Shown: piece by piece, positions 34,139 to 56,415 of the stretch
How positions within the stretch are numbered: position 1 is the first letter of the stretch
Layout: each line of letters opens with the position of its first letter
Source of the DNA: Gracilibacteraceae bacterium
Lineage (GTDB): Bacteria > Bacillota > Desulfitobacteriia > Desulfitobacteriales > Syntrophobotulaceae
NCBI GenBank assembly: GCA_031266805.1
Contig: JAISAH010000120.1
Location: forward strand, 1 to 64,000
Direction: 5' to 3'
Length of the DNA: 64,000 nucleotides
Translations under genes and position numbers: made by a program
Notes under the pieces: model-generated
What the model was told of the DNA's origin: nothing
The model's input: only the letters and a program-made list of their open reading frames with translations
Database searches by the model: none

Positions 34139-34159
34139 CATCCGTCTCCCGCTTCCCCA

Positions 34160-34313: not shown

Positions 34314-34327
34314 GAAAAGTGAACTCG

Positions 34328-35068: not shown

Positions 35069-35072
35069 CCGC

Positions 35073-36056
35073 TTATCGCAGCGCGGCCGTCAAGGCGATT
35101 AGGTTTTGCCGCATGACGGAAAAATAATCGGCCCCGGCCGCCGTTTCCTCATCGCTCAGCCCCTCCAGCGGATTCAGCGCGTCCGTGCGGGCGCCGATGG
35201 CTTCCGCGATGGTTTCCGCCACTTTCGGGCTGACTAATTCCTCGAAAAAGATGACTTCCACATCGCGCTCTTTCGCGAATTCGATGATTTCCGCCATCCG
35301 CGCCGGATCCGGCTCCGAATCGGCGGACAACCCCTCGATCGGAATTTGCGTCAGTCCGTAGGCCGCGCACAGATAGCCGAAAGCCTGATGGGCCACGACG
35401 ACATCTTTACGGGGCAAAGGGCTGAGCGTTTCCTGAAACTCGCGGTCCAAAGCATCCAGCTCCGCGGCGTATCTGCTGTAGTTCGCCTCGTAATAATCCC
35501 TGTTGGCCGGATCGGCGGCGGCAAAACCTTCCTTGATGTTTTCCATCTCCAGTTTGGCGCCCTGCGGACTCAGCCAGACATGGGGGTCATATTCTCCTTC
35601 TCCTTCATGCTCCCCGCCTTCATCCTCGCCGTCCTCCAGCGCTCCTTCCAGCAAAACCGCTCCCCGCGCGGCCTCCACGACGACAAGCCCCTCATTTCCC
35701 AGCGCCGCCAGCGCGCTGTCCGCCCAATGCTCCATGCCCGCCCCGTTGTAAATGAAAAGATCCGCTTCCTCCAAACCGGCTATATCGGCGGCCGCCGGTT
35801 CCCAGTCATGCGGCTCTATCCCGGCCGGGACCATGTTGACGACTTCCGCCTTGTCTCCGCCGATTTTCAGGGCAAAATCATACATCGGGTAAAAGCTGGC
35901 GCAAACGCTTATTTTCGCTTGCGGCTCGGCTGATTGCGACTCGTTTTCATTTGTGCCTCCCGCCTGTGGATCGGCCGGGGCCGGAGCCGCCGAGCATCCC
36001 GCCAGCAAAACCAGCGCTGCGCAAAGAGTAAGTACGACGCGGAATCTTTTTTTCAT
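35073..36056 (-). CDS. znuA: Zinc ABC transporter substrate-binding lipoprotein ZnuA
   Basis: AGGAGG lies seven bases before the second of two adjacent ATGs (36056); the first, at 36059, is also possible. The signal peptide ends in the lipobox LLAGC. The SBP_bac_9 fold shows FYPMYDFALKIGGDKAEV, GIEPHDWEP, an acidic/His stretch between residues about 150 and 162 (GEHEGEGEYDPHVWLSP) and HQAFGYLCAAYGL, giving the three metal-binding histidines plus the usual flexible charged loop of zinc binders. It is the first gene of the operon. Confidence 0.94.
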   Translation of the reverse strand: MKKRFRVVLTLCAALVLLAGCSAAPAPADPQAGGTNENESQSAEPQAKISVCASFYPMYDFALKIGGDKAEVVNMVPAGIEPHDWEPAAADIAGLEEADLFIYNGAGMEHWADSALAALGNEGLVVVEAARGAVLLEGALEDGEDEGGEHEGEGEYDPHVWLSPQGAKLEMENIKEGFAAADPANRDYYEANYSRYAAELDALDREFQETLSPLPRKDVVVAHQAFGYLCAAYGLTQIPIEGLSADSEPDPARMAEIIEFAKERDVEVIFFEELVSPKVAETIAEAIGARTDALNPLEGLSDEETAAGADYFSVMRQNLIALTAALR

Positions 36057-36089
36057 CATTTTTCCTCCTGATGATCCCAATATTAAACG

Positions 36090-36910: not shown

Positions 36911-36932
36911 ACGCCCTCCGGGGCGTTTTTTT
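36911..36932 (+). terminator. Rho-independent terminator after clpP
   Basis: ACGCCC-TCCG-GGGCGT followed by seven T residues. Confidence 0.9.
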
Positions 36933-36937
36933 ATATA

Positions 36938-37783
36938 TCAGTGCAGCGGGTGTTCGGCGACCCGCCCGGCATAATACTCGTACAGCGGCACCAGCAAGGA
37001 GTCATATTCTTTTTTCGCGCGTATCCAGTAAGAAATCAATTGTTTGATATTGCCGACCCGGTAATAGTTCGGCAGATCGTTCAGGATGAAAGCGCTGATG
37101 TCTCCCACGCAGCGCTCGCATTGACAGGTGGGGGAACTGTCGGCCATATCTTTGATGATAGTCGCCACGACTCGCTCCATCACGTTTTCAATGAAGATCT
37201 CTTCGCGGGGGGGCGGCGCGTCCGGCTTGTGCCAGGGCGCGTTTTTCACCACGGCGCAGGCTAAAAGCATGGCGCTGGTGATTTCGGCAAAGTTTTTCTT
37301 GTAGTAAAAATCTTCCAGCGCCAGGGCCGGAGAAAAAACAGACACATATTTGGAGTTGATTTTGTTCAGTGTGATGGCGGCCGCTTCCATGCGGCAGCGC
37401 GCGCAGTGGCAGATGCCATAGTCGCGCAGCGTATCGCCGACGTGCTCCATGACGATATTATACATCAGGTTGACGGGTTGGCGGTAGTTTTCCGTAAAAT
37501 CGCGCTGAACATTACTTGCGGGCGTCAGGGGGACGCGATTGTCCGTATCGTGAGGCAGATTCAAGCGGCGAGGCGGCGGAGCGGGACTCGCCGGCGGCGC
37601 CGCCGGTTTGGGCGCGGCTGCCGGCTGCGGGGCGGCCGCCGGTTGCGGCGGTTGCGGAACAACAATTTCGGGCGGATCCGTTTTCACGGCTTCCGGCGCC
37701 GCGCCGGCCTCGCTGCCGCCGGTCGGGATGATTTTTTCAAAAAGCCGCTCACTTTTTAAAGCTGATTTTTTCTTGCCTGCCAT
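36938..37783 (-). CDS. Double ComFB-domain protein
   Basis: ATG at 37783 has GAGG six bases upstream, giving about 281 aa. Residues 1-90 are basic, then Pro/Ala-rich and probably disordered. Two ComFB-like domains follow. The first (about 95-180) has MYNIVMEHVGDTLRDYGICHCARCRMEAAAITLN. The second (about 190-275) has IENVMERVVATIIKDMADSSPTCQCERCVGDISAFILNDLPNYY. Both keep the CxCxxC-type cysteine cluster and the LNxLPPxY-like strand. ComFB proteins are linked to late competence operons and have been reported as c-di-GMP receptors in cyanobacteria. It is the last gene of the chemotaxis supra-operon, 59 nt after parA. Confidence 0.85.
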   Translation of the reverse strand: MAGKKKSALKSERLFEKIIPTGGSEAGAAPEAVKTDPPEIVVPQPPQPAAAPQPAAAPKPAAPPASPAPPPRRLNLPHDTDNRVPLTPASNVQRDFTENYRQPVNLMYNIVMEHVGDTLRDYGICHCARCRMEAAAITLNKINSKYVSVFSPALALEDFYYKKNFAEITSAMLLACAVVKNAPWHKPDAPPPREEIFIENVMERVVATIIKDMADSSPTCQCERCVGDISAFILNDLPNYYRVGNIKQLISYWIRAKKEYDSLLVPLYEYYAGRVAEHPLH

Positions 37784-37842
37784 AGTATACCTCTTTTCGT
37801 ACCCAGTTATTTCCAAAAAAATCAATTAATTTGTCCAAAGCC

Positions 37843-38604
37843 CTATAATCCTCTCTCTATTAATTCCTGTACCAGTTTTTTATAATCACGCACCGCGTTG
37901 TTGCGCGGCATATATTTGAACATATTGACCTGCATGGACTGCGCTTCCGCGATGACCACGCTCGCGCGGACAGCGGCGTTCAGCAGGGGGAGGTTCAGCT
38001 CGTCGGCGATCATCTGAGCCGTGGCGCGGATTTCCCGGCTCAGAACAGTGCGGGCGTTATAGCGCGTGAGAACGATGCCGAGCATCCGCAGGGCGGGGTT
38101 GCTGTATTCACGCACGCGAACCACCGTATCGTTCAGGCGGGCCAGCCCCTGGAGACTGAAGATGTCGGCCAGAATCGGGACGAGCAGCCCGTCCGCCGCC
38201 GTGAAAGCGTTGATCGTCAGCACGCTCAAAGCCGGCGGCGTGTCGACGATGATATAATCATAGACGGAGCGCACTTCACTTAAAGCGTTGCGCAGGATAA
38301 ACTCCCAATTATTCTGCGCGGCGTCGATCTGGACGCTGCTCAACATTATGTTGCCGGCTATGACGTCGGCCAGCGGAGTTTTCTGGATCGCCTCGCCGGC
38401 GCCGCATTCTTTCGCCAGCACGTGATAGGCGGCGCGAACGTTTTCCGTCGCCGCTCCGAGGCTGAAACTCAAATTACCTTGCGGGTCAAGGTCGACAGCC
38501 AGAACTTTATTCCGGCCGCGCTTGAGACCCAAAGCCAAGGCGTTGGCCGTGGTGGTTTTTCCCACGCCGCCTTTTTGGTTAGCGACCGCGATCACGATGC
38601 CCAT
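37843..38604 (-). CDS. ParA/Soj-family ATPase without an adjacent ParB
   Basis: The 253-aa protein has the deviant Walker A QKGGVGKTTTANALA (residues 10-24), LAVDLDPQGNLSFSLG, IIVDTPPALSVLT (Walker B) and a C-terminal helix region with REIRATAQMIADEL and RASVVIAEAQSMQ. This is a full-length ParA of the Soj type. No parB or parS-like gene is near. It follows the FtsA-like gene and closes a chemotaxis gene string, which recalls ParA homologues (ParC, PpfA) that position chemosensory arrays in other phyla. Confidence 0.92.
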   Translation of the reverse strand: MGIVIAVANQKGGVGKTTTANALALGLKRGRNKVLAVDLDPQGNLSFSLGAATENVRAAYHVLAKECGAGEAIQKTPLADVIAGNIMLSSVQIDAAQNNWEFILRNALSEVRSVYDYIIVDTPPALSVLTINAFTAADGLLVPILADIFSLQGLARLNDTVVRVREYSNPALRMLGIVLTRYNARTVLSREIRATAQMIADELNLPLLNAAVRASVVIAEAQSMQVNMFKYMPRNNAVRDYKKLVQELIERGL

Positions 38605-38643
38605 GCCAGTGTCCTCCTGATACAGACTGCCAAATCCGGTTTT

Positions 38644-40623
38644 TTACTCAATAATAACGGCGTCTCCCGATTTCAACTCGGCGCTGAAAGGCGCTTCCCG
38701 ACCGTTCAGCCGGCAGCGCAGCCCCAGCGCCCGTCTTTCCAATATGTCTTTTTCCACATAGTTGAACAAATCCAGCAGAAGATACGCGCTCCCGTCCGCT
38801 TTCGGCGTCAGGCGAACAGCCTTGTCATTCAGCTCCAGCAGGATCGTCTCGCGCCGCCCTTCCGCTTCCCGCGCGGGGTCAAACGAGGTCAGCAGATCGC
38901 CCGGGTTCAGCAGATCGCCGGCCGCGGCCGGAACACCGTTCAGCCAGTAGGATTCCTGCTGCGGGTCCAGATGGATCAACTGCGCGAAATCCCCGAACCT
39001 GAGTATCTCCACCGTGCGGACCTCGTCCCCGTCGGCTATTTCATCGTTCTCGCGGGCGAACTGCCCGTTCCGCAAAACCCATACGCCGGCGTAGTATTCC
39101 CGCTCATCGACCATGACCATAAAACGGCGATAGGCCGGCGCCGCTTCTTTCACGCTCCGCCGGGCGTCCACGCCGCTCACCGCCGGGATGAAACCGATCT
39201 CATCCCCTTCGCTCACCTGAGCGTCCAGAGAAGCCGCCTCCCCGTTCAGCCTGATTTGCGCGGGCCGCGCCAGTTCGCCGCTTATAGTCGTCAGGCGCCC
39301 GTCCATGTAAAAACGCAGCGGCTTTCCCATATGGCCGACTAATTGCTCATACTTGTAATACCCGCTTAAAATGAGGATGTCCGAGACTTTGACGCCCTCG
39401 TAGCTGTACTGCCGGATTTTTTTCCCGTTCACCGTGACCGTCCCAAAGGAATGGCCGCCCTCTTGCAAAGCCGTCCAGGCTATGCCTAGCGGCGTGATAT
39501 ACTCCGGACTTTCCAGTCCCGCCGACTCGGGAGTCCCGTGCAGCACCCGCTGGATATGCGTGGCGCCGCCTACGGCGACTCGGTGTTCGTCCATACCGAG
39601 TTTTTGGGCGAACGCGGCAGTCAGCTCCGGGTATTGACTGCCGCCGCCCACAAGGAAAAGCGCGGTAGGCGCGGTTTCGTTGATAGCCAGTATTTTTTCC
39701 GTCACCTCGCTCACGAGCAGATCAACAGCGGAGCGGGCCGCGGCCATTATCTCCGTGTTCGGCGCCGTCTGAGTCAGGCCCAGGATATCGACGAATACCA
39801 CTTCTTCGCGTTCGGTCAAGTTTTGTTTTATTTTTTCCGCCGTGGTAAAATCAACCAGCATAGCCTGCATAATAGCCTCGGTGATCTCGTCGCCGGCCAC
39901 CGTGACCATATCGTAGCCGATGACGGCGCCGGCGCGGGAAACCGCGATATCCGAGGTGCCGGCTCCTATGTCCACGAGCGCCAGATTCAACATGCGCAGC
40001 TCCGGCGGTATCACGACGTTCATGGCCGCGATCGGCTCCAGCGTCAGACTGCCGACTTCCAGACCGCTGCCGTCCATAGCGGCGTACAGACCTTCCACGA
40101 CTATTTTAGGCAAAAAAGCTGTTATCAAAGTCATCTCAAACTCTGCGCCTTTGTGCCCGGCCGCGGTGCTTAACTCATAGCCGTCCAGCACTTGGCGGCT
40201 GACGGTATGGCCGACGCAGTAAAAAGCGGCGCGTTCGCCGCTTTCCTTGTTCAGCTCCGCCTGAGCCAGCGCTACCGCTTCCATTTCCAAGTTGCGCAGC
40301 ATCTCGGTCGTGAGTACCTCGCCCTCGCCCAGCAGACGGCGCAAAGTCACCATCCGCGTGCGCAAAGCCCGCCCGGCGGCGGCGATCGCCACATCAGGCA
40401 GTTTTATGTTCAGCTTTTGTTCTAAAGAGGTCTTAACCTTGCCGACACAGGCGCTGACATGGGCGATATCGTCCACTTGCCCGTCTATCATCGCCCGTTT
40501 GCCGTGTTCTATGATCTCCGCGCCCAAAAGCCGCATTTTTCCGTCCGCCAAATGGCAGACCAAACCGATAACGGTACGGGTCCCGATGTCGAGAGCGAAT
40601 ACCGCGCGTTCCGCCGAATCCAT
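38644..40623 (-). CDS. FtsA-like actin-fold protein with beta-grasp-like C-terminal tail
   Basis: The 659-aa product has FtsA/PilM-type actin-fold motifs in residues 1-400: ALDIGTRTVIGLV (phosphate 1), an FtsA-type inserted subdomain region (VAIAAAGRALRT), ALVDIGAGTSDIAVSRAG (phosphate 2) and LFLVGGGSQYPELTAAFAQKL (adenosine). The 240-residue tail is not FtsA-like. It contains repeated 60-80-residue modules with an LNG turn and a final GD-x-(V/I) strand (LNGEAASLDAQVSEGDEIGF, LNGVPAAAGDLLNPGDLL, LNGREAPFSAELKSGDAVII), like ThiS/TGS-type beta-grasp folds. No C-terminal FtsA membrane helix is seen. It lies between the HDOD gene and parA. Confidence 0.8.
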   Translation of the reverse strand: MDSAERAVFALDIGTRTVIGLVCHLADGKMRLLGAEIIEHGKRAMIDGQVDDIAHVSACVGKVKTSLEQKLNIKLPDVAIAAAGRALRTRMVTLRRLLGEGEVLTTEMLRNLEMEAVALAQAELNKESGERAAFYCVGHTVSRQVLDGYELSTAAGHKGAEFEMTLITAFLPKIVVEGLYAAMDGSGLEVGSLTLEPIAAMNVVIPPELRMLNLALVDIGAGTSDIAVSRAGAVIGYDMVTVAGDEITEAIMQAMLVDFTTAEKIKQNLTEREEVVFVDILGLTQTAPNTEIMAAARSAVDLLVSEVTEKILAINETAPTALFLVGGGSQYPELTAAFAQKLGMDEHRVAVGGATHIQRVLHGTPESAGLESPEYITPLGIAWTALQEGGHSFGTVTVNGKKIRQYSYEGVKVSDILILSGYYKYEQLVGHMGKPLRFYMDGRLTTISGELARPAQIRLNGEAASLDAQVSEGDEIGFIPAVSGVDARRSVKEAAPAYRRFMVMVDEREYYAGVWVLRNGQFARENDEIADGDEVRTVEILRFGDFAQLIHLDPQQESYWLNGVPAAAGDLLNPGDLLTSFDPAREAEGRRETILLELNDKAVRLTPKADGSAYLLLDLFNYVEKDILERRALGLRCRLNGREAPFSAELKSGDAVIIE

Positions 40624-40641
40624 TTTTCCCTCCCCGAAATA

Positions 40642-41886
40642 TCAATTGGCGGGACTCATCAGGTCTCCCCAAGTTTGGGACACGTTTTTCACACATTGCA
40701 GATAGGATTCGATGACCGATTCCTCCGGCAGACCGAGTTCCGCGGCCAAGCTCGTCACTTCCCGCCAATCAGCCTGCTCGTGCGCCAAGATCAAACGATA
40801 GAGCAGTCCCATCGAGCCCTTCTTCTCCAGCAGCGCCTCGTTGACCTCGTCGCTCAGCGGCAGTTCCGCCAGAATGGTCGCGAGGTTGTTTTCCAGCAGC
40901 TGGTCCAGCACCGAAAACATGCCGACCAGATAACAATCCGCGTGCTTTTGCTGTAATTTCGCTATCTGCATGGCCAAAGTCTGCGCTATCTCGCCTCGCT
41001 GAAAAGCCAGCCGGATCAAAACGTCGGAACCCGCGCGGCTGGTCGCGCCAAAGCTCAAAAGATATACCCAGTCCAGCAGCTGGCGCATCCCGACGATGAC
41101 CACCGCCTGCTTGATATTGGCGATGCGCGTCCGCAAGGCGAAATAAGCGGAGTTCACCAGACGGAGCAATTGATAGCTCATGGTCACGTCGCTGGTTATA
41201 ATGGACGCTATTTCATCCACATTAGGCTCCGGCAACACGAGCTGGCTCATGAGCCGCAGGAAATTTATCTGATTATGCTCAATTTTCTTGCCTTCAACGG
41301 CCACGGGTTCGGCAAAGAAATGGCCTTGCACCTGATGAAATCCGAAAGAGCGCGCCCGCTCAAAATCCGCCTGCGTGTTCACGTTCGTGGCCATCAGCTT
41401 TTTGTTCAGGCCGAGACAAACGCGCACGATATGGGTCAGAGACGTTTCCGTTGTTTTTTCAATGTCCAGGCTGATGATATCGACGAGATCCAACAGATTG
41501 AAATACCGCTGGGCGAACATGAAATCATTGAAAACAAAGGAATAGCCGTCTTCACGTAATTTATACAATTCCTGCAGCAAAGGCGTATTTACCGAGGCGC
41601 TGTCGTCGATCTGGATGACAAGTTTATCTTTGTGAAATAATTTGCTGACATTTTCCCGGATCAACTGACTCGTAAACGTCAGATACAGTGGCATATCATC
41701 TGTAAAAAGCTGGGAGTCAGCGGACGAGAAAATCTCCCCGATCACTTTCGCCGCGCTCTCGCTGGAAACAGGCTCGTCATTCAGCATCGGGCCGTCACTG
41801 TCACTGTACATCAGGGCGTAAGCGCAGATCTTCTCCGTCTCCACACTGATAATCGGCTGTCTGACTATTGAAGCAGGCACGTCCAT
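40642..41886 (-). CDS. YuxH-type protein with degenerate EAL and HDOD domains
   Basis: ATG at 41886, next to AAGGAGG, gives 414 aa beginning MDVPASIVRQPIISVETEKIC. Longer readings run into the preceding gene's 3' end. Residues 1-200 have the EAL fold, but the EAL signature is replaced by YALM, and the other metal ligands (for example IKLD and DDFG/EGVE motifs) are not recognisable. It is therefore probably not a c-di-GMP phosphodiesterase. Residues 205-400 form an HDOD domain (ITSDVTMSYQLLRLVNSAYFALRTRIANIKQAVVIVG). Such proteins act as signalling adaptors. It is the second of the non-che genes in the che operon. Confidence 0.87.
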   Translation of the reverse strand: MDVPASIVRQPIISVETEKICAYALMYSDSDGPMLNDEPVSSESAAKVIGEIFSSADSQLFTDDMPLYLTFTSQLIRENVSKLFHKDKLVIQIDDSASVNTPLLQELYKLREDGYSFVFNDFMFAQRYFNLLDLVDIISLDIEKTTETSLTHIVRVCLGLNKKLMATNVNTQADFERARSFGFHQVQGHFFAEPVAVEGKKIEHNQINFLRLMSQLVLPEPNVDEIASIITSDVTMSYQLLRLVNSAYFALRTRIANIKQAVVIVGMRQLLDWVYLLSFGATSRAGSDVLIRLAFQRGEIAQTLAMQIAKLQQKHADCYLVGMFSVLDQLLENNLATILAELPLSDEVNEALLEKKGSMGLLYRLILAHEQADWREVTSLAAELGLPEESVIESYLQCVKNVSQTWGDLMSPAN

Positions 41887-41900
41887 TCCCTCCTTGGTCT

Positions 41901-41930
41901 TGTCACGGCTGACGCCGGTTTTTTTTCCTA
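41901..41930. repeat. Fragment resembling the inverted-repeat element interior
   Basis: TGTCACGGCTGACGCCGG followed by eight T matches 25309-25338 of the long inverted-repeat element at about 26 of 30 positions. It lies between two genes of the che operon and overlaps the stop of the upstream one. Confidence 0.45.
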
Positions 41931-43568
41931 ATGAGCGGAGCCTTCTTCCGGCGAGGCTTCCCCGGATTCCGGCGTCACAGCGGTCACGGGCGTCACATTT
42001 TCCACCGGTCCAAAAATCGTCCCCGTCAGCACGCAAAGCAATTGCTCGTTGTCGGTCAGCAGATTCGAAAGCTGCCAGTCTCGCCCGACCCTGTCCATAT
42101 GGACCGACACTACCGCTGTTTTTTTGTCCGGCGCGGCAGCCAGTTCCCGTTCGATCAACGCGATCATGGACTGTTCCAGTTCTTCGCTGGTGGACTGCTG
42201 CGTCACAAACGGGCCGTAATTCTCCCGCCAGTATTTACTGGGGATTTGTTCCATGACGGATGCCAGATCATAATATTGAAAACTGACGCTGACCGCGGCG
42301 GTGCGGCCTTCGATCTCGGCGCCCGCTACCGAATAGGAAAAGTCGCCTAATTTGGCGATGAGCGCCTCTTTGGCCGGAGCGTAAGCCTCCCGCGTAAATA
42401 TCCGCTCAAAAACAGGCCCTTGAAAAAACTCCGGCTGCGTAATAGCCGTCATGCCGAATACTTTTTGCTGCGTCAGCCATAAATCAACCGCCGGCTCCGG
42501 CGGCGAAACTTCAAGAAAAATCTTGTAGGCCGCGAACCCGCCTCCAGCCAAAAGCCCCAGCGCCACAACGCCGATGATGAGAATCAGGAGTTTGCCGGCA
42601 AGGAATCCTTCACTCACTTTGACTCCCTGCGCCCGCGCCGCCTGACGCCGCTCTATTTCCGCTATCTGCCGCCGCGCCTTGTCCGAACGTTTTTGCTCCT
42701 TGCGTTCCCGCGCTTCCTGACGGGCTCGCTCTTTGCGTTCTTTTTCCTGTTCTCCCCATATAGGGTCTTTTTTTTGCCGGCTGTTGTTTTCTTTTTCTTC
42801 CCGCTTTTTCGCGGCGGCTTCTTTTTTTCTGTCTCGTTCCGCTTTCTTCTGTTCCGCCGAACGCGCTTTCTGCTCCTCCTTTTTTTGCTTGGCTTCTGCT
42901 TTATTCTGCGCCTTGGCGGCTTTCTCCTGCAATTTGTTCTCGTTTTCCAGCCGTTTCCGCTCTAATTGCTCCTCGCGCCACTGAGGATCCAGCTTTTGCC
43001 GCCGTTTTTCCTCCCGTTCCTGCAGTTTTTGCTTTTTTTGCTCGTCCCTGCGCTCCCGCTCCTTCTCCCGCCGCATGGCCGCCATCTGTTCCTTGGCCGT
43101 TTTTTTCTGCCGCGCCTGCTCTTTCGCTTTTGCTTTAAGTTCGTCCTGTTCCCGCCGCCATTCCGGATCCAGACGCATCTCTTTCTGCAGCAATTTCGTT
43201 TTGCGGCGCTGCTCGGCCGTCGCTTTTTTGCGCAGCGCCGCCAGCGCTTTATTGTTTTTGCTCAGCAGCTTGCGTTTTTGCCTGTCCAGTTTGCCCAAAA
43301 CCTTCTCGGCCTTGCGCTCGACGACAAAAGGCGGATCTTTCATGTTCATGGACAGCTTGCGCACAGCCTGCTTTTTTTTCATTTCAATGCTGTTGAGCGC
43401 GACTTTCTGTTTCATCTCGATGCCGCGCCGCTTCATTTCTTCTCTGCGCCTGGCGGCCGCTTCCATCTGCCTGTCCTGCTGTTCGCGCCTTTTTTTCATT
43501 TGTTCCGCCGTCGCGTCCCGAATAGCCTGGGCTTCGGCGCTGACAACCGCGTTTTTTCTTGCCGCCAT
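41928..43568 (-). CDS. Highly charged coiled-coil, single-pass membrane protein (unknown)
   Basis: I do not recognise this 546-aa protein. Residues 1-320 are almost entirely Lys/Arg/Glu/Gln/Ala and should form long helices or a coiled coil, with no signal peptide. Within it, the motif DPxW(R/G)xxQ recurs at 134, 194 and 268 (DPEWRREQ, DPQWREEQ, DPIWGEQE), spaced 60 and 74 residues apart, with a weaker DPPF at 78. A single hydrophobic helix spans about 326-350. A 190-residue C-terminal domain would lie outside, with a Thr/Glu-rich end. The start is 11 nt after the cheW stop, so it is firmly in the che operon. It could tether the array to the membrane or bind nucleic acid; both are guesses. Confidence 0.8.
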   Translation of the reverse strand: MAARKNAVVSAEAQAIRDATAEQMKKRREQQDRQMEAAARRREEMKRRGIEMKQKVALNSIEMKKKQAVRKLSMNMKDPPFVVERKAEKVLGKLDRQKRKLLSKNNKALAALRKKATAEQRRKTKLLQKEMRLDPEWRREQDELKAKAKEQARQKKTAKEQMAAMRREKERERRDEQKKQKLQEREEKRRQKLDPQWREEQLERKRLENENKLQEKAAKAQNKAEAKQKKEEQKARSAEQKKAERDRKKEAAAKKREEKENNSRQKKDPIWGEQEKERKERARQEARERKEQKRSDKARRQIAEIERRQAARAQGVKVSEGFLAGKLLILIIGVVALGLLAGGGFAAYKIFLEVSPPEPAVDLWLTQQKVFGMTAITQPEFFQGPVFERIFTREAYAPAKEALIAKLGDFSYSVAGAEIEGRTAAVSVSFQYYDLASVMEQIPSKYWRENYGPFVTQQSTSEELEQSMIALIERELAAAPDKKTAVVSVHMDRVGRDWQLSNLLTDNEQLLCVLTGTIFGPVENVTPVTAVTPESGEASPEEGSAH

Positions 43569-43579
43569 GCGTCAATTCC

Positions 43580-44080
43580 TCACATCTGTGATACGTCTAA
43601 AGCCGCTACTTCTTCCTCGTTCAGCAAACGCTGACTGTCCAGCAAAAGAATCATTTTACCCAGCCGTTTGCCTACTCCGATGATAAACCGATGGGCGTAA
43701 GAGCCGGTCAATCTCGGCGCCGGTTCCACATCGCCCTGATCGATATCCACCACTTCCTGCACTTCGTCCACGATAAAACCGATATCCAGTTCATTGATAT
43801 TCGTGATGATGATGCAGGTGCGGCTGTCATAGGGTTTTTCCGGCATATGGAAACGAAGCCGCACATCGACGACCGGGATGATCCGGCCGCGCAGATTGAT
43901 GATCCCTTTGGCGTAGCCCGAAAACTGGGGCACCTGGGCTATCGGGCATAAACTGATTATCTCCACGACATCGCTGATAGAAATGCCAAAAGACTGCTCG
44001 TCGATCGCAAATGTTAAATATTGATTGAGAGCGACCACTGTTTCCTGTTCCTGCAGTTCCGCCTGCTGTAGCCAATCCAT
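43580..44080 (-). CDS. cheW: Chemotaxis coupling protein CheW (second copy)
   Basis: ATG at 44080 with AAGGAGG upstream gives 166 aa (MDWLQQAELQEQETVVALNQ). The CheW core contains YLTFAIDEQSFGISISDVVEII, VPQFSGYAKGIINLRGRIIPVVDVRLRF and IGFIVDEVQEVVDI. CheW links CheA to receptors. It is distinct in sequence from the first cheW at 46115. Confidence 0.94.
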   Translation of the reverse strand: MDWLQQAELQEQETVVALNQYLTFAIDEQSFGISISDVVEIISLCPIAQVPQFSGYAKGIINLRGRIIPVVDVRLRFHMPEKPYDSRTCIIITNINELDIGFIVDEVQEVVDIDQGDVEPAPRLTGSYAHRFIIGVGKRLGKMILLLDSQRLLNEEEVAALDVSQM

Positions 44081-44108
44081 CCCTTTTCCTCCTTCACCGT
44101 ATGACGCC

Positions 44109-44138
44109 GCCGCCCGGCGTGTTCGCTCGCCGGGCGGC
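44109..44138. promoter_or_regulatory. Hairpin between cheB and the second cheW
   Basis: GCCGCCCGGCG (44109-44119) and CGCCGGGCGGC (44128-44138) form an 11-bp perfect stem with an 8-nt loop and no T-tract. It could tune mRNA processing or stability within the operon rather than end it. Confidence 0.5.
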
Positions 44139-44141
44139 GCG

Positions 44142-45239
44142 CTACTGCCGGCGGCGCAAATACTGCAGCACTTCGCTGGCAATGAGGTCCAGTCCTGTTT
44201 CCTTGCAGACGGCGCCTTTTTTGAAAGCCACCATCGGCATGCCGTACACAACACAACTGTCCTTATCCTGGCCTAACGTGTAAGCGCCGGCCTTGCGCAG
44301 CAAAAGCAGCCCGTCGGCGCCGTCCCCGCCCATGCCGGTCATGATTACGCCGACCGCGTCGCTTTTGGCGACCCGCGCCACGGAAGTAAACAGATAGTCC
44401 ACGGAAGGGCAATGCCCGCTCACTTTCTCTCCGGCGGCCACCTTGACCGCGTAGCCGAAAGGAGCTGTTTCCAAGCCCATCTGGAAGCCGCCGGGCGCTA
44501 TCAGGATACACCCCGTCATCACCGGATCGTGATTTTCCGCTTCCTTGACCCGCATAGCGCAGATCTTATCCAGCCTTTCCGCGAACATCCGGGTAAATCC
44601 GGCCGGCATATGCTGGGTGACGACGATACCGGGCGTGTCGGCCGGAAAACGCCGCAGCACCTCGGCCAGAGCGTCCGTTCCTCCGGTCGAGGCGCCGAAA
44701 GCCAGTATGGTTTTGGCCGAACTCTTAGCGGCCGGGGCGGGGCGCAGTGCGGCAAGGGGCGCGGGCGCCGCCGGAGCCGGAGCAGGAACCGGAGCGGGAG
44801 CCGCCGCTCCGTCGGAAGCGGCGGCGCGGCGGCCGAACCGGAGATGGGCTACCGACGCGATCTGGATCTTTGCCGACAAGTCGGCAAAGAACGTGTCCAG
44901 GGCTTCCTTCCCGCCTTTGGGTTTGGGGACAAAATCCACGGCGCCGGCCGCCAGGATGTCGAAAACCCGCGCGTCCAGAGAACTGACCATCACCACGGGC
45001 AAAGGTTTGGCGCTCATGAGTTTTTTCAAAAAATCAATGCCGTTCATGCCGGGCATTTCCACATCAAGCGTCAGCACATCCGGCCTGAGCTCGCGGATCT
45101 TGTTTTCCGCGTCCTGGGCGTCCGCCGCCGTCCCCACCACCTCGATTCGGTCGTCCTGCCTCAGCCCGTTTGTGAGGACGCCGCGAAAAAAGTGAGAATC
45201 GTCAACTATCAGGACGCGTATTTTCTTTTTGACCACCAT
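44142..45239 (-). CDS. cheB: Protein-glutamate methylesterase CheB
   Basis: The 365-aa protein has a receiver domain with D59 (LTLDVEMPGMNG), a Pro/Ala linker near residues 148-172, and the methylesterase domain with Ser in GASTGG, His in VVTQHMPAGF and Asp in MTGMGGDGADG. It removes methyl groups from chemoreceptors and may deamidate glutamines. Confidence 0.96.
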   Translation of the reverse strand: MVVKKKIRVLIVDDSHFFRGVLTNGLRQDDRIEVVGTAADAQDAENKIRELRPDVLTLDVEMPGMNGIDFLKKLMSAKPLPVVMVSSLDARVFDILAAGAVDFVPKPKGGKEALDTFFADLSAKIQIASVAHLRFGRRAAASDGAAAPAPVPAPAPAAPAPLAALRPAPAAKSSAKTILAFGASTGGTDALAEVLRRFPADTPGIVVTQHMPAGFTRMFAERLDKICAMRVKEAENHDPVMTGCILIAPGGFQMGLETAPFGYAVKVAAGEKVSGHCPSVDYLFTSVARVAKSDAVGVIMTGMGGDGADGLLLLRKAGAYTLGQDKDSCVVYGMPMVAFKKGAVCKETGLDLIASEVLQYLRRRQ

Positions 45240-45260
45240 ATCTGCACCTCGTTTCCGCGG

Positions 45261-46082
45261 CTAACGCGAAGGTTTGCGATAAACGGCCGGTTGGATGAAC
45301 TGGAACGGCGTGGCGTCTCTGGTTATGGTTTCCGAGTGGCCGATAAAAAGGTAGCCGCCCGGTTCCAGCCGTTCGTAATATTTATTCACCAACTGCTTGC
45401 GGGTTTCCTGATCAAAATAAATCATCACATTGCGGCAGAAAATGAGATTGAACAAGTAGGGAAAATGGAAATCATCCATCAGGTTCAGCACTTTGAACTC
45501 CACATTCTGGCGAATGGCCGGCACGACCTGATACTCGTCCTTCTTATTTTCAGCCGGTTTAAAATATTTCACCCGCCAGTTAAGGGGGATATCCTTCAGC
45601 AAATCGGCTTTATACGTCGCTTCTTTCGCCCCGGTCAGCACGGATTGCGAAATATCGGTCGCCAGCACCGGCGTGCGCCAGAGCGATTTTTTCACGCCGA
45701 AATAATCGTTTATCGTCATCAAAGTGGTATAAGCTTCCGCCCCCAGTGAACAGCCGGCGCTCCATATCCGGTAAATCTTGCGCGTGTTTGTTTTTTCCTG
45801 TTCCGGTAAAATTTTATCTTTCAGATACTCAAAATGTTTCGGTTCCCGCATGAAAAACGTCAGGTTCGTCGTGATTTTATTTAAAAACGTCGTTATTTCT
45901 TCACCACTGGTATCTTTGCGCAATAAAAGAATATAGTCTGAGAAAGTTTTGCAGCCTTTAGCCTGCAAAGTCGAGTTCAGACGCCCTTCTATCAGCACGC
46001 GCTTACTTTCCAGATTGATACCGTATCTGGTTTTGACGTAAGTGTACATTTCTTTGAATTCTTTATCCGTCAGTTTAATCAT
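45261..46082 (-). CDS. cheR: Chemotaxis protein methyltransferase CheR
   Basis: ATG at 46082 with TGGAG upstream gives 273 aa starting MIKLTDKEFKEMYTYVKTRYG. The N-terminal helical domain is followed by the SAM-binding domain (RIWSAGCSLGAEAYT, VLATDISQSVL, FNLIFCRNVMIYFD, GGYLFIGHSETI). It methylates receptor glutamates. Confidence 0.96.
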   Translation of the reverse strand: MIKLTDKEFKEMYTYVKTRYGINLESKRVLIEGRLNSTLQAKGCKTFSDYILLLRKDTSGEEITTFLNKITTNLTFFMREPKHFEYLKDKILPEQEKTNTRKIYRIWSAGCSLGAEAYTTLMTINDYFGVKKSLWRTPVLATDISQSVLTGAKEATYKADLLKDIPLNWRVKYFKPAENKKDEYQVVPAIRQNVEFKVLNLMDDFHFPYLFNLIFCRNVMIYFDQETRKQLVNKYYERLEPGGYLFIGHSETITRDATPFQFIQPAVYRKPSR

Positions 46083-46114
46083 TTTTTCTCCATCGGCGCC
46101 AAAAATCGGGGACG

Positions 46115-46582
46115 TCAACCGTCGCGCAATATACGCCGGCAATCAAGCAGGAGCCTGACCTTGCCTTTGTCCTGGGCCACGCCTTTCATAAAATTGCCGG
46201 AATAATCATTCGCCGCGCCGGGCGGCGCCGATATATTGTCGTCGGCAATATCCACCACTTCGTCTATCGAGTCCACCACCAGCCCCACCACGTCCTCATC
46301 CACTTCCACGACTACGATGCATGTTTTGGCGTCATATTCCCGGAGCGCTTTTCGAAAACGGAGACGCATGTCGATGATCGGAATGACCTTGCCGCGCAGA
46401 TTCATGATACCGATGATATAGGGGGGAATTTTCGGCACCCGCGTCATGTTCTGCACGCCAATGATCTCCAGGATATATTCTATATCCAGGCCGAAGCATT
46501 GTTCATCCAGTAAAAATGTCAGATATTTACCGCGCAGAGTGTTTTCGGTTTCCTGGATTTCCTGAGCCACAATTTCATTCAT
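46115..46582 (-). CDS. cheW: Chemotaxis coupling protein CheW (first copy)
   Basis: ATG at 46582 with GAGG seven bases upstream gives 155 aa. Core motifs are YLTFLLDEQCFGLDIEYILEII, VPKIPPYIIGIMNLRGKVIPIIDMRLRF and VGLVVDSIDEVVDI. It sits directly after cheA. Confidence 0.95.
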   Translation of the reverse strand: MNEIVAQEIQETENTLRGKYLTFLLDEQCFGLDIEYILEIIGVQNMTRVPKIPPYIIGIMNLRGKVIPIIDMRLRFRKALREYDAKTCIVVVEVDEDVVGLVVDSIDEVVDIADDNISAPPGAANDYSGNFMKGVAQDKGKVRLLLDCRRILRDG

Positions 46583-46626
46583 CTGAATTCCTCTTTCCGC
46601 TGGTTGGAGATCCGCAGGCAATAGCT

Positions 46627-48975
46627 TTAATGGAGCAGGCTCGACATTTCCAGTATCAGGCTGATGCTGCCGTCGCCGAGGATCGTGCAGCCCACAATGC
46701 CGTCGTCCCGCAGATCATACGAAGAAAGGTAGGACGGCAGGGGTTTTACGACCACCTGATACTGGCCGAGCAGTTCGTCGGCGAAAACACAGGCCGCGCT
46801 GCCGCCGGCCTCGACGAGGATCAGAATGCCCTCCTCGATATCCGTCACCTCAGTCTCCATATCCAACGCTTCATACAAGCGGATGATCGGATAGCATTCG
46901 TTACGGATCAGCACCATCTGCGTGCCGTTCGCGTCCTCTATGATATTCTGCGCTGTGCATTTAAACGTCTGGTTGATGACATTTATGGGGATAGTCAGGA
47001 TGGACTTTCCGACAGCCACTTTCATCGCGTCAATGATGGCCAGCGTGAGCGGTATTTTGAATATGGACGCCATGCCGAGGCCTTTCCGGCTCTCGATCGT
47101 CACTGTGCCGCCGATTTTTTCGATGTTTTTCTTCACCACGTCCATTCCGACGCCGCGGCCGGAAAATTCCGTCACTTCACTTTTGGTGGAAAACCCCGGC
47201 AACAGGAGCAGGAGGAACGCTTCTTTCTCCGAGTATTCGGCAGGGCTTTTGGTCAAGAGGCCTTTCTCCGCCGCCTTGTTCAGCAATACTTCGCGGTCCA
47301 GACCTTTGCCGTCGTCTTGGACGGTGATGAGGATCTCCCCGGCGGAATTCTGCGCCGACAAAACGATCTTGCCTTTTTCCGGCTTGCCGCCCGCCAGACG
47401 GTCCGCCCGGCTTTCAATGCCGTGATCCATCGAATTGCGCACAAGATGCATGAGCGGATCGGCGATGCTGTCCACGATCGTTTTATCTACTTCGGTTTCC
47501 TCGCCGACGAGGATGAGTTCCACGTCTTTATCCAGTTTTTTATTCATATCGCGCACTATACGGAACATTTTCTGAAACGCTCCGGACACGGAAACCATGC
47601 GCAGCGACATGGAAATATCCTGCAATTCCCCCGTCAACTTGCGGAGCTGGCGGGCCGATTTGGTAAAATTTTCCAATTCAAGGTCTTGCAGATCCGGGCT
47701 GGAGGTGACCATCGACTCTGTGATGACAATTTCCCCCACCAGCTCCATCAGCGCGTCTAGCTTATTCAGGCTTACGCTGATCAGGTTCTGTTTGACCACC
47801 CGGCCGCTTTCCGGAGCAGGTGCCGGGGAAACCGCCGGTTGCGGCTTCACGGCCACAGCCGCCGCCGGCCCGGATTGTTCCTCTTTCGCTATAGAGACCG
47901 GCACTGGCGCCGCCGGCGCCTCGTCCGCGGCTGTCTCCTCCCAGTTTTCCGTCGCGTAAGACTTCACATGCAGACCTTGCTCCACGACGCCGAGGACGTC
48001 GCCGACCCGCCCGTCGTCGCTCACGATCAGGAGAAAACCCTCATGGATGACCTGCTGCGTCGCTTCTTCGTTATTGATAAGCTGTTCCGGGACGGAACGA
48101 ATGTCCGGATAAACTTCCAGCACCTGATTCAAAAGCTGAAAAGCCCGCATGTTTTCCATACCGCAGCCGTCTTCAAAAAAGACGCGGATGGCGCTCGCTT
48201 CTTTTTTGCGCGCCAGCTTATATTCACGCCCGCCCGCGGTAAAAGAAGCTATATTCAGCGAGTTGTTCAGCAGATCCGTCACTTTGCCCACATCAGCGGC
48301 ATCTTCTAAAACAACGCGAAATCCGCGCGTGATGATCTCCTGGACAGCCGCTTCGCTGTTTTCCAGTCTTTCCGGCACAGAGACGCATTGTACGCCGATT
48401 TCCCGCATTTTGTTCAAAATAATCATGGCGCGGACGTTTTCCATTTGGCAGCCTTCATCAAAACGAACCAGCACCTCACGGGAATCATCCGTCGTCGCCG
48501 CCGGCGGTTCGGCGGCTGACGGCGAGGGGATGCTGCGGCCAGGCGGAGGCGGAGGCGCCGGGGTTTCGCCTTTCAGCACGCCGAGAAAATTCAGGATGCG
48601 TTCTTCCAGAAAAGCGATGTCCGAGTTCAGCGGTTCCCCGTTTTCCACTTTCTCGATTTCTTCTTTCAAAAAATCGTTGGCCTGAAAGACCAGGTTGCAC
48701 AAATCCTCGTTCATTTCCCGGTCAACGCCGTTATTCCGGATATAGGAAAAGAGGTCCTCGACCTTATGGGCGACTTTCGCTATTTCATTAAATTCCATCA
48801 TGGCGGAAGATCCTTTGATCGTGTGCATGATGCGGAAAATAGAGTTGATTTCCTCTTCGCTGAACTCGTTGCTCTTTTCAGCGCCGAGCAAGATCTGATC
48901 TAATTGCTCCAGCAGGGAATTTGTTTCATACAGGTACATTTCCGCCATGGAATCATTGATGGTAATATCTGCCAT
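46627..48975 (-). CDS. cheA: Chemotaxis histidine kinase CheA with duplicated P2-like domain
   Basis: The 782-aa kinase has an HPt/P1 with phospho-acceptor H51 in RIMHTIKGSSAMM, two P2-like domains in tandem (about 165-255 and 265-350, both with the pattern F(D/E)xGCxMENxRAxxxLNxxxE...SVPExLxNxE), and P3 dimerisation from about 395 (SVSLNKLDALMELVGEIVITESM). P4 ATPase follows (LVRNSMDHGIESR, VQDDGKGLD, FSGRGVGMDVVKKNI), then a CheW-like P5. It autophosphorylates and passes phosphate to CheY and CheB. It is first in the operon. Confidence 0.96.
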   Translation of the reverse strand: MADITINDSMAEMYLYETNSLLEQLDQILLGAEKSNEFSEEEINSIFRIMHTIKGSSAMMEFNEIAKVAHKVEDLFSYIRNNGVDREMNEDLCNLVFQANDFLKEEIEKVENGEPLNSDIAFLEERILNFLGVLKGETPAPPPPPGRSIPSPSAAEPPAATTDDSREVLVRFDEGCQMENVRAMIILNKMREIGVQCVSVPERLENSEAAVQEIITRGFRVVLEDAADVGKVTDLLNNSLNIASFTAGGREYKLARKKEASAIRVFFEDGCGMENMRAFQLLNQVLEVYPDIRSVPEQLINNEEATQQVIHEGFLLIVSDDGRVGDVLGVVEQGLHVKSYATENWEETAADEAPAAPVPVSIAKEEQSGPAAAVAVKPQPAVSPAPAPESGRVVKQNLISVSLNKLDALMELVGEIVITESMVTSSPDLQDLELENFTKSARQLRKLTGELQDISMSLRMVSVSGAFQKMFRIVRDMNKKLDKDVELILVGEETEVDKTIVDSIADPLMHLVRNSMDHGIESRADRLAGGKPEKGKIVLSAQNSAGEILITVQDDGKGLDREVLLNKAAEKGLLTKSPAEYSEKEAFLLLLLPGFSTKSEVTEFSGRGVGMDVVKKNIEKIGGTVTIESRKGLGMASIFKIPLTLAIIDAMKVAVGKSILTIPINVINQTFKCTAQNIIEDANGTQMVLIRNECYPIIRLYEALDMETEVTDIEEGILILVEAGGSAACVFADELLGQYQVVVKPLPSYLSSYDLRDDGIVGCTILGDGSISLILEMSSLLH

Positions 48976-52772: not shown

Positions 52773-53519
52773 CTAAACCGGCCGGCCGATTTCGCTCACG
52801 GTCTGGCCGGTCGTTTCGTCTATCATTTTCATGATGCGCGAATAAGTCTGAAATTCCCGCGCGCTGACGATGGCCAGCGACATCTCTTTGGTCATGTTCG
52901 TGTTAGACTGTTCCAGTGATTGCCAGACGACGGACTGGGCAAACTGCGGAGCGGCGTCTTCCGGCGCGATGAAAAACCCGTCGTCCGCCTTGACGAGCGC
53001 CGTGAGATCCTCGGTGGAAAACAAGCCTATCTGCGCCGCCAATTGCCCGTTTTCGTAGAGGCCGCCTTCGCTGTCGGCTGTGAATCCGGTCCCGTTAAGC
53101 CGGATCGGCGCGCCGCCTGTGTCGAGGATATTGCCGCCGCGGGCGTGGACCAGATTGCCGTCCACATCGAGGGCAAACTCCCCGTTTCGCGTCCACAGCA
53201 CGCTGCCGTCCTCTCGCTCCACGGCGAAAAACCCGTCGCCGCGCACGGCGAAATCCAGCGCCCGCTCCGTCGGCAGGAACCCACCCTGCGTGAAATCCGT
53301 ATAGGTTTCCTCCACCCGCCGCCCGAACACCGCCTGCCCCACCGAGCCGGAATCAGCCATCGCCAGCCGGGTCAGCAGTTTGGTCGCGAAAGTCGTATCC
53401 AGCGGCACGTCCCGCTTAAAGCCGGCGGTTTGCGTATTGACCATATTGTTGGCCAAAACGCTCAGGTTCTTGTTTTCGGTGATAGCCCCCGCCGTCGCGG
53501 TAAAATAACTGCGGATCAT
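52773..53519 (-). CDS. flgF: Flagellar hook-basal body protein, FlgF/FlhO-like
   Basis: The 248-aa protein has LSVLANNMVNTQTAGFKRDV, FAVRGDGFFAVEREDG and C-terminal LEQSNTNMTKEMSLAIVSAREFQTYSRIM. It starts 4 nt inside the sigD stop region, indicating coupling to the sigma factor gene. Confidence 0.88.
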   Translation of the reverse strand: MIRSYFTATAGAITENKNLSVLANNMVNTQTAGFKRDVPLDTTFATKLLTRLAMADSGSVGQAVFGRRVEETYTDFTQGGFLPTERALDFAVRGDGFFAVEREDGSVLWTRNGEFALDVDGNLVHARGGNILDTGGAPIRLNGTGFTADSEGGLYENGQLAAQIGLFSTEDLTALVKADDGFFIAPEDAAPQFAQSVVWQSLEQSNTNMTKEMSLAIVSAREFQTYSRIMKMIDETTGQTVSEIGRPV

Positions 53520-54310
53520 GCTTCTCCCTCCCCATATAAATAACTTTGCAGTTTTTTCTTCATTTTTTTCAAGGCGCCGTTATGCATCTGGCAAATTCTG
53601 GAAGGCGACACGCCGAGAATATAGGCAATGTCCTTTTTTTTCAACTCTTCATAATAATGCAAAGTCATAACCAATTTCTCCCTCTCGGTCAGCTCGTCCA
53701 GCGATTCGGTGATCACGGCGCGCAGTTCTTTTTCTTCCACGGAAAACCCGGGCTGCTGCTCCGCGTTTTGGGCCACGTTTTCCCGAAAACCCTTCGTGCC
53801 GTATAGTCCCACGTCCACCAGTTCCTCGTAGGAGAGCAGATGAAACATATGCTCCTCGCCGATGATTTTTTCCACCGCCGGCACGTCCATGTTCAGATGG
53901 GCGGCGATTTCCTCCGTCGTGGGCATCCGCCCCAATTGGGCGCTCAAGACGTCCGTCGCGCCGCTGAGAAGCACCGCTTCTTTTTTCAGCCGCTTGGTCA
54001 CCCAGTCCTGATTGCGGACAAAATCGATGATGGCGCCGCGCACGCGGATGGAAGCGTATGATTTGAACTGGCTTTTTTTCTCCGGATCATAGTTTTCAAT
54101 GGCCTCCAGCAAAACGACAAAACCCTGGTTGATCATGTCCTCCATTTCCGCGAAGTTTTTGTAGGTGCCGCGCATCTGGTAGGCGTAAAGCCGGACGATA
54201 TACATATATTCCAGCGCCAGCTCGTTGCGCAGCTCCATATCCCGCGTCCGCCAGTATTCTTCCCATACGGCCTGTTCCGCTTCCCGGCCCGGCGAGGCGT
54301 TACTGAGCAT
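53516..54310 (-). CDS. sigD: Flagellar sigma factor SigD/FliA
   Basis: ATG at 54310 (AAAGGCGG eight bases before it) is preferred to GTG at 54319. Sigma regions are visible: region 2 (EYMYIVRLYAYQM, MEDMINQGFVVLLEAIENYDP, FKSYASIRVRGAIIDFVRNQDWV), region 3 (PTTEEIAAHLNM) and region 4 (LTEREKLVMTLHYYEELKKKDIAYILGVSPSRICQMHNGAL). It directs transcription of late flagellar and chemotaxis genes. The gene follows flhA with almost no gap. Confidence 0.95.
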   Translation of the reverse strand: MLSNASPGREAEQAVWEEYWRTRDMELRNELALEYMYIVRLYAYQMRGTYKNFAEMEDMINQGFVVLLEAIENYDPEKKSQFKSYASIRVRGAIIDFVRNQDWVTKRLKKEAVLLSGATDVLSAQLGRMPTTEEIAAHLNMDVPAVEKIIGEEHMFHLLSYEELVDVGLYGTKGFRENVAQNAEQQPGFSVEEKELRAVITESLDELTEREKLVMTLHYYEELKKKDIAYILGVSPSRICQMHNGALKKMKKKLQSYLYGEGEA

Positions 54311-54315
54311 CACCG

Positions 54316-56415
54316 TCACCGCCTTTCACCCGCCGCGCCCGGCTGAGACCCGCCCGCGAGGGTCAGGGCGCCGATCGACTGTATCTGCACGGTGCTGTCG
54401 ATTTCGTTAAATGAAAGGACGGCGACGCTGGGGCAGAATTGCTCCGTTATGCGGTGAAAATACATGCGGACGCCCGGCGAGGTGACGACGATCGGCGTGG
54501 CGATAACGTCTTTTAAGCGGTTCATATGCTCCATCAGATTATGCACGATCGCCTGGATGCTTTCCGGCGGGATGGATAAATAAGTCGAATGTTCGCTCTG
54601 TTTGACGCCGGCGATGATCAGGTTTTCGATCTCCGCGTCCAGAGTCAGCACCCGGATCAGCCCGTGTTCGGCGTAACGGCGGGTGATGGTGCGTTTCAGC
54701 CGCTGGCGCACGTACTCGGTCAGGAGATCAACGTCGCGCACAGTGCCGGCGTAGTCCGCCACGGTCTCAAGGATGGTCTCCACATCCCGGATGGGGATCC
54801 CCTCCCGCAGAAGATTGGAGAGCATCTTCTGCAGATTGCCGTAACTCAGGAGCGACGGCGTCACTTCATCCACGAGCGGAGCGTTATATTGCCGGACGTT
54901 ATCGAGCAGGCTCAGAAGATCCTGGCGGCTGAACAGTTCGGCCGAGTGAGCTTTGATCACTTCGGACAGATGCGTGACCATGACGGAAAGAGAATCAATG
55001 ACCGTATAACCGTAAATCTCCGCCAGTTCTCTCTTATCGGGGGTGATCCAGCGGCTCGGTATGCCATAAGCCGGCTCGATCGTCTCTATCCCGTCCACCT
55101 CCTGCTCCAGATTGCCCGGATCCAGCGCCAGATAATAATCCACGAGGATCTCTCCCCGCGCCACTTCCTCTCCTTTCAGCTTGATCACATACTGATTGGG
55201 ATTGAGCTGCCCGTTGTCCCGCAGACGCACGGCCGGCACGACCATGCCCATATCGAGAGCGAACTGCCGGCGAAACAGTACGACCCGGTCGATGAATCCG
55301 CCGCTTTTTTCTTCCACCAGCGGGATCAGGCTGTAGCCGAATTCCATCTCTATCGTCTCCACCGGCAAAATAGAGTAAATATTGTCAATATTGCGATAAA
55401 ACTCCGTCTCGCTGACTTCCGGACGCGCGTCCGCCGGCGCCCCGGCCAGCGCCGGCTGCAGGCGGGTCTGGTCGCGTAAAAGGCGAACGCCGAAGAAGAT
55501 ATAGACAGCGGCCAGAAGGATAAGCTGCGGCTTGGGCATCCCGGGCACGAGACAAAAACAGACCAGGACGCCGCCGGCGATCAGCAAAGCCGTCGGCTGA
55601 GAGAGAAACTGCCTGCCCGCCTCCATGCTCAGGTCGCCTTCGGAAGCGGCCCGCGTCACTACCATGGCCGTGGAGATGGAAATGACCAGAGCCGGGATCT
55701 GCGAGACCAGGCCGTCGCCGACGGTGGCGATGGAGTAGATCTGCACGACCTCGCCGAACGTTCCCCCGCCCTGCACCATGCCGATGATGATCCCGCCGAC
55801 CAGATTGATGACGGCGATGATGATAGAGGCGATGGCGTCCCCTTTCACCAGCTTCGTCGCGCCGTCCATCGCGCCGTAAAAATCGGATTCGCGCTGGATT
55901 TTTTCGCGCCGGCCTCTGGCTTCCGTCTCGTTGATGAGACCGGAATTCAAATCGGCGTCGATAGCCATCTGTTTGCCGGGCATGGCGTCCAAAGTGAAGC
56001 GGGCCGCCACTTCCGCGATGCGCTCCGCCCCTTTGGTGATGACGAGATACTGGACGATGATGATGATGGTGAAAATCACGAGTCCCACCACGATGTTGCC
56101 GCGCAGCACGAATTCCCCGAAAGTCTTGATCACCTGACCGGCCTGCCCGCTTTCGGTGAGGATGAGGCGGGTGGAGGAAATATTCAGCGCGATGCGCAAG
56201 AGGGTGGTCACGAGCAGGACGGAAGGGAAAATCGAAAATTCCAGCGGACCCCGAATATACATGGTCATGAGCAAAATGACGACGGAAATCGATATGCTGA
56301 AAATGAACATGAGGTCGAGGAGAAAGGTCGGCAGCGGCACAATGATGAGCGCGATAATCGCTATCACGAACACGGCGATCAGATTATTGCCCAGAAAATT
56401 CAGAAACCATCTCAT
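54316..56415 (-). CDS. flhA: Flagellar export gate protein FlhA
   Basis: The 699-aa protein has eight N-terminal helices (to about 320), the FHIPEP signature region with [31 protein letters not shown], and the cytoplasmic domain with [31 protein letters not shown] and [26 protein letters not shown]. It forms the export gate ring. It overlaps flhB (ATGA). FlhF and FlhG genes, usually next, are missing. Confidence 0.97.
   Translation of the reverse strand: [699 protein letters not shown]

Follow-up and report, generated by a model that had tools for sequence, protein, structure and literature searches.

A chemotaxis operon with a candidate ParA-based placement module in a Gracilibacteraceae genus, and the link of its FtsA-like protein to chemotaxis across the phylum

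The window analyzed here, a 64,000-nucleotide stretch that is part of an 86.8-kb contig in a Gracilibacteraceae metagenome assembly (3.4 Mb, 95% complete), carries ten minus-strand genes between positions 48975 and 36938. The chemotaxis genes cheA, cheW1, cheR, cheB and cheW2 are followed by genes for a membrane coiled-coil protein (coil), an EAL/HDOD protein, an FtsA-like protein (FtsAL), a ParA ATPase and a double-ComFB protein (ComFB2). The ten genes lie where a preliminary description, made from the sequence alone, had placed them, and nine of them have Pfam families, coil being the sole exception. FtsAL was found to be linked to chemotaxis across the phylum Bacillota. We give an even chance to the reading that the chemosensory core is co-expressed with its own placement module, made up of ParA, ComFB2, FtsAL, the coil protein and the EAL/HDOD adaptor. 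The weight of the finding comes from FtsAL, as no description of it or of other FtsA-like proteins as tied to chemotaxis was found in the open-licence literature.

FtsAL is linked to chemotaxis across the phylum

CheA (by PF02895) and FtsAL (by full-length match) were scored in 150 genomes drawn evenly from the phylum. Two weak FtsAL matches that resembled canonical FtsA were excluded from the counts, and six CheA-negative genomes were identified by their absence from the match list. CheA was found in 124 of the 150 genomes and full-length FtsAL in 87. FtsAL was present in 86/124 genomes with CheA versus 1/26 genomes without it (Fisher p = 2.3e-10; the p-values for FtsAL and CheA, here and below, overstate the evidence because the sampled genomes are related). 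The 87 genomes with FtsAL represent 48 families and the 26 CheA-less genomes represent 21. Families f28 and f30 hold members with and without CheA, and in both the CheA-negative member also had no FtsAL. These data single out an uncharacterized but common gene as chemotaxis-linked, and it is a direct deletion target in a cultured anaerobe.

The idea that FtsAL tracks sporulation was rejected, as SpoIVA had no effect among CheA-positive genomes (p = 0.44). Among SpoIVA-positive genomes, FtsAL occurred in 80/117 with CheA versus 1/12 without it (p = 7e-5), and among SpoIVA-negative genomes in 6/7 with CheA versus 0/14 without it (p = 1e-4). SpoIVA was not found in the genome of the window (G000), versus 129 of the 150 phylum genomes that have it, so the window lineage probably does not sporulate.

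The gene neighborhood of FtsAL was analyzed in 89 loci outside the genus of the window and in 40 control stretches, mostly from the same genomes. FtsAL had a che gene nearby in 20/89 loci, which represent nine families, whereas 0/40 controls had one (p = 4e-4). Fourteen of these 20 loci have a same-strand cheR at most 1.3 kb upstream of FtsAL, which often sits immediately downstream of a solitary cheR. In two loci of family f3, which belongs to the same order (L066 and L068), FtsAL and a che operon are convergent; L073 has cheA, cheW and cheB on the FtsAL strand. Linkage to che genes, with the genus of the window included, required seven changes when mapped on the FtsAL tree, which shows that the link is not a single inherited block. 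Other neighbors were also recorded. Five relatives (L054, L055, L057, L070 and L072) share a conserved row of a DNA-polymerase-delta-like ATPase gene, pfkA, ftsAL and often lgt. In families f18 and f63 (L080, L081, L093, L099 and L101) a FlgE/FlgG-like flagellar rod/hook gene is found 0.9-1.6 kb upstream of FtsAL, and L080 and L081 have an MreB-like gene next to it.

Among solved structures the best match of FtsAL was FtsA (3e-21), followed by PilM, and FtsAL scored below both NCBIfam cut-offs (64.8 versus 175.85 bits for ftsA TIGR01174, and 53.2 versus 133 bits for PilM). Its nucleotide-binding motifs DIGTR, DIGAGTSDIA and GGGS were invariant or near-invariant in 13 orthologues. The C-terminus contains a beta-grasp-like stretch and no evident amphipathic helix. 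Identity to orthologues in the order was 39-41% at most. Nearly every genome of the order had FtsAL as a single copy; two genomes of genus g17 (G035 and G055) were the exceptions, being without FtsAL, CheA and ComFB alike. From this joint absence, ComFB may also follow motility.

The origin of the FtsAL gene in the operon was examined on the same tree. Transfer of the family's own FtsAL into the che operon was disfavored (AU, approximately unbiased test, p = 7e-5), with the qualification that the branch of the genus FtsAL is long, at 1.48 changes per column, and that tests of this type are less safe there. The tree suggests that FtsAL of the genus was replaced through horizontal transfer, with some doubt left by the long branch.

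The operon and its conservation in the genus

Conservation was investigated in other Gracilibacteraceae metagenome-assembled genomes, the genus (g1) comprising five genomes, G000 to G004. The gene order of the operon was the same in L034, L035 and L036 as far as the contigs extend, where FtsAL was 97%, 79% and 74% identical to the window copy, respectively; the parA-comFB2 pair of the L036 genome was found on a separate contig (L049). The pairwise ratios of nonsynonymous to synonymous changes (pN/pS) of orthologues were mostly 0.02-0.28, with 0.39 for a coil fragment in L037, and these low values place the comparable operon genes under purifying selection. A pN/pS of 0.66 for cheW1 in L035 was discarded, because the L035 contig has no cheW1 and the row had matched the paralogous cheW2 instead of an orthologue.

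Co-occurrence of the five added genes with che genes, on which the preliminary description had made its reading depend, was thus observed as a set fixed in the genus, and phylum-wide FtsAL is tied to chemotaxis both by distribution and by neighborhood. The same description had regarded the five genes as a set not known from a described system. Their co-encoding with che genes was borne out in the genus; outside it no complete set was found among the genomes searched, which included 56 others of the order.

The layout of the operon is given in Table 1. The range of 4-61 nt first given for the gaps stemmed from longer open reading frame starts; with starts set by the ribosome-binding site (RBS), the gaps from cheA to comFB2 are 44, 32, 21, 61, 11, 41, 18, 39 and 59 nt. 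A consensus scan of the coding strand found no hairpin-plus-T terminator in these gaps, as had been noted before, and weak sites only within genes. At 36911-36926 there is a clear hairpin whose T-run lies on the plus strand; most simply, it terminates the convergent clpP. On this layout the ten genes would form one transcription unit.

Table 1. Genes of the chemotaxis operon and the flhA-fliA context in the window
Feature	Coordinates	Strand	Description
cheA	46627..48975	-	782 aa; Hpt, two P2, dimerisation, ATPase and CheW-like domains; Pfam
cheW1	46115..46582	-	155 aa; Pfam, start set by RBS
cheR	45261..46082	-	273 aa; Pfam, start set by RBS
cheB	44142..45239	-	365 aa; Pfam and NCBIfam
cheW2	43580..44080	-	166 aa; Pfam, start set by RBS
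coil	41928..43568	-	546 aa; no Pfam or NCBIfam family
EAL/HDOD gene	40642..41886	-	414 aa; Pfam HDOD and weak EAL; degenerate EAL signature
ftsA-like (FtsAL)	38644..40623	-	659 aa; actin-fold ATPase and beta-grasp (ThiS-like) C-terminal part
parA	37843..38604	-	253 aa; Soj-type, ParA/AAA_31 (Pfam)
comFB2	36938..37783	-	281 aa; basic N-terminal peptide, Pro/Ala linker, two ComFB domains
flhA-fliA context	53516..56415	-	fliA directly after flhA; no flhF/flhG at that position

The operon cheA was the single CheA match in G000. The protein was 46-48% identical to the accessory-cluster CheA of relatives (L050, L052 and L053) and 30-34% identical to the flagellar CheA of relatives (L064 and L066). 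Since the operon follows flagellar genes, beside a large flagellar locus, and encodes the sole CheA found in the genome, this CheA must serve the flagella. Its P2 domains are arranged in tandem. No MCP domain was found by Pfam in any of the ten operon proteins. A ParP-like protein was also absent among the ten genes, CheW domains being present only in CheA and in the two plain CheW proteins.

ParA has an intact deviant Walker A motif, KGGVGKTT, and Soj structures match its residues 2-251. The nearest ParA outside the genus was 42% identical, and the closest relative, in L062, has a small partner-like gene downstream. The ComFB2 N-terminus, MAGKKKSALKSERLFEKIIP, is kept in four genomes and has a net charge of +4 in 22 residues; it is followed by a variable Pro/Ala-rich linker and then by the two ComFB domains. 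The N-termini of the other nine operon proteins are all less basic, and the solo ComFB encoded elsewhere in the window's genome has no basic extension. ComFB2 scored 81.3 bits against the Pfam ComFB family (cut-off 25) in two stretches, contains a CxCxxC motif, and matched structures 4wai and 8hja. The double ComFB is confined to the genus, and most relatives have one solo ComFB. As shown for another member of the family, ComFB serves as a receptor of c-di-AMP and binds c-di-GMP as well (PMC12313861). What activators of ParA/MinD ATPases such as ParB, PomX, McdB and TlpT have in common is a short, basic peptide at the N-terminus of unrelated cargo domains; for the chemotaxis ParA PpfA, TlpT has been suggested as activator (PMC7993993). 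By analogy with this layout, ComFB2 would be a candidate ParA partner. The preliminary description of a ParA without ParB was right in that no parB adjoins parA; the protein would not be partnerless, however, if ComFB2 with its ParB-like basic N-terminus takes that place.

The N-terminal 313 or so residues of the coil protein form a helical rod rich in K, R and E, with a net charge of +48 across residues 1-318. A single transmembrane segment near residues 322-350 and a C-terminal domain of about 190 residues follow. DP motifs at 78, 134, 194 and 268, three of them DPxW, are spaced by about 56-74 residues and fall at predicted helix breaks of the rod. The structural model was usable for the N-terminal helix only, with block means of about 58-88 up to residue 310 and mostly below 50 beyond it. 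The coil protein was confined to the genus, barring two marginal C-terminal matches (E = 4e-4 and 5e-4). In FrzCD, a basic tail is described as binding the nucleoid and recruiting signaling complexes (PMC5716589). In the EAL/HDOD protein, as read from its sequence, YAL replaces EAL and NDFMFA replaces DDFGTG; because the catalytic EAL signature is lost, the protein is predicted not to be a phosphodiesterase. Only distant homologues were found outside the genus.

Three other parts of the window were recorded. Between cheA and cheD lies a plus-strand pair (49200-50886), one gene of which is FliK-like by position, while the second matches a short FlhB C-terminal-like protein of L053. A secreted 1776-aa protein, the start of which is like that of cell-wall-binding repeat proteins, is encoded at 2792-8122 and has a partial relative in L048. 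A row of genes for a Fur-like regulator, an ABC permease, an ATPase and a metal-binding lipoprotein at 32890-36080 looks like a zinc/manganese importer.

A possible placement module and its alternatives

The preliminary description of the genes was right, and its interpretation as an array-positioning or division-coupling module is plausible but unproven. The gene order, its conservation, the tie of FtsAL to chemotaxis and the lack of FlhF are shown, and a single transcript is supported less directly; the physical partners, cargo, positioning and second-messenger control set out below are inferred. The operon would make the cell's sole CheA-based chemosensory core together with a spatial-organization module. 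ParA would bind the nucleoid as an ATP dimer, and ComFB2, sitting on the cargo, would trigger ATP hydrolysis by ParA through its basic N-terminal peptide, so that the cargo would follow the ParA gradient or be spaced by it. The cargo would most likely be the CheA/CheW array with FtsAL, an array-associated actin-fold ATPase that would form a separate branch beside FtsA and PilM and would be used by most motile members of the phylum. The coil protein may tether the cargo to the envelope; the EAL/HDOD protein, presumably inactive, may act as an adaptor. The ComFB domains may tune the ParA-driven movement of the cargo via c-di-AMP or c-di-GMP. The module may also substitute for the missing FlhF, FlhG and MinD. 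A more specific version is offered tentatively, as a possibility well short of an even chance: FtsAL would be a dedicated part of chemosensory arrays or of the adaptation machinery, wired in this genus to a ParA with a cyclic-dinucleotide-receptor activator, and a second messenger would set array placement.

Several observations weigh against a chemosensory placement module. In the window's own family FtsAL adjoins pfkA or lgt, away from che genes. In the phylum sample 38 genomes have CheA and no FtsAL, and a single genome, G098, has FtsAL and no CheA. Outside the genus, no relatives of ParA, ComFB2, coil or the EAL/HDOD protein were observed in the vicinity of FtsAL, so the chemotaxis link of these four genes comes from one genus. 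As a motif, the basic peptide of ComFB2 is short. For FtsAL, an AlphaFold2 model built from five close sequences had a mean pLDDT (predicted local distance difference test) of 39.8 and was not used.

The strongest rival, which we consider unlikely, is that flagella or the division site are what the module positions, after loss of FlhF, FlhG and apparently MinD, co-regulation being the sole reason for its expression with the che operon. FlhF was found in 0/5 genomes of the genus and was present in all other family members searched; a weak FlhF match in G004 scored like a signal recognition particle (SRP) GTPase. In relatives flhF and flhG are adjacent to each other, a PF10609 match of about 290-340 aa adjoining FlhF, and a MinD-like match of 267-285 aa lies elsewhere. 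Judged by lengths, scores and coordinates, neither the FlhG-like nor the MinD-like PF10609 class was found in the five genus genomes, which supports the absence of FlhG and MinD less directly than that of FlhF, and the genus may thus be without MinD as well. The direct succession of flhA and fliA in the window, the likeness of FtsAL to the division protein FtsA, and the rod/hook gene upstream of FtsAL in f18 and f63 also favor this rival. However, FtsAL loci have che genes, mainly cheR, as neighbors more frequently than flagellar genes, FlhF is present in many FtsAL-bearing genomes of the order, and loss of FlhF need not require a replacement.

A pilus-linked or surface chemosensory system is improbable. 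In such a system FtsAL would have a PilM-like role in a complex of the pilus or the envelope, ComFB2 would sense c-di-AMP or c-di-GMP, and the EAL/HDOD protein would tune motility versus attachment. FtsAL matches PilM as well as FtsA, the operon CheA is of the accessory type, ComFB controls cyanobacterial pili (PMC12313861), and CdgJ influences pili and motility in Vibrio (PMC4624765). However, the sole CheA of the genome has flagella to serve, and no pilus genes were noticed beside FtsAL loci, although no systematic search for them was made. We hold it equally improbable that the operon is shared without a shared mechanism, housekeeping or mobile genes having fallen behind the che promoter and been kept by drift. 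The restriction of the complete set to one genus is consistent with this, as are the likeness of ParA to the L062 protein with its own partner-like gene and the finding that the genus FtsAL falls outside the family's copies in the tree, which implies that the operon genes were assembled from different sources; but order and reading frames are kept at 74-80% FtsAL identity under purifying selection, and the independent link of FtsAL to chemotaxis elsewhere makes a chance placement of at least FtsAL unlikely.

Comparison with known systems

To our knowledge, little is known about the placement and inheritance of chemosensory arrays in Gram-positive and related anaerobes, and the ParA array systems that are cited come from Vibrio and Rhodobacter. 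If confirmed, the ComFB2 layout would link second-messenger state to intracellular positioning.

Like the ParC/ParP/HubP system of Vibrio, the operon encodes a ParA-family ATPase with che genes, an extra CheW-like protein and a large putative membrane anchor. Unlike in that system, the candidate partner has ComFB domains instead of a CheW-like one, an FtsA-like protein is encoded in the operon, and there is no ParP-like protein. PpfA and TlpT, which segregate the cytoplasmic cluster of Rhodobacter sphaeroides, also combine a ParA from a che operon with a partner whose basic N-terminal extension acts on nucleoid-bound ParA, as the putative partner would here. However, TlpT is a soluble chemoreceptor, whereas the operon studied here encodes no receptor and has ComFB2 in the place of the partner.

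FtsAL shares its actin-fold ATPase core with FtsA and PilM, but differs from both in its long beta-grasp tail and its scores below their NCBIfam cut-offs. ComFB2 has the ComFB domain and the CxCxxC motif of the ComFB/CdgR cyclic-dinucleotide receptors, but joins two such domains in one protein, preceded by a basic peptide and the Pro/Ala linker. Finally, PomX/PomY/PomZ and McdA/McdB likewise consist of a ParA/MinD ATPase and an activator in which a basic N-terminal peptide is joined to an unrelated cargo domain; in the operon described here the cargo domain is a different one and the context is chemosensory.

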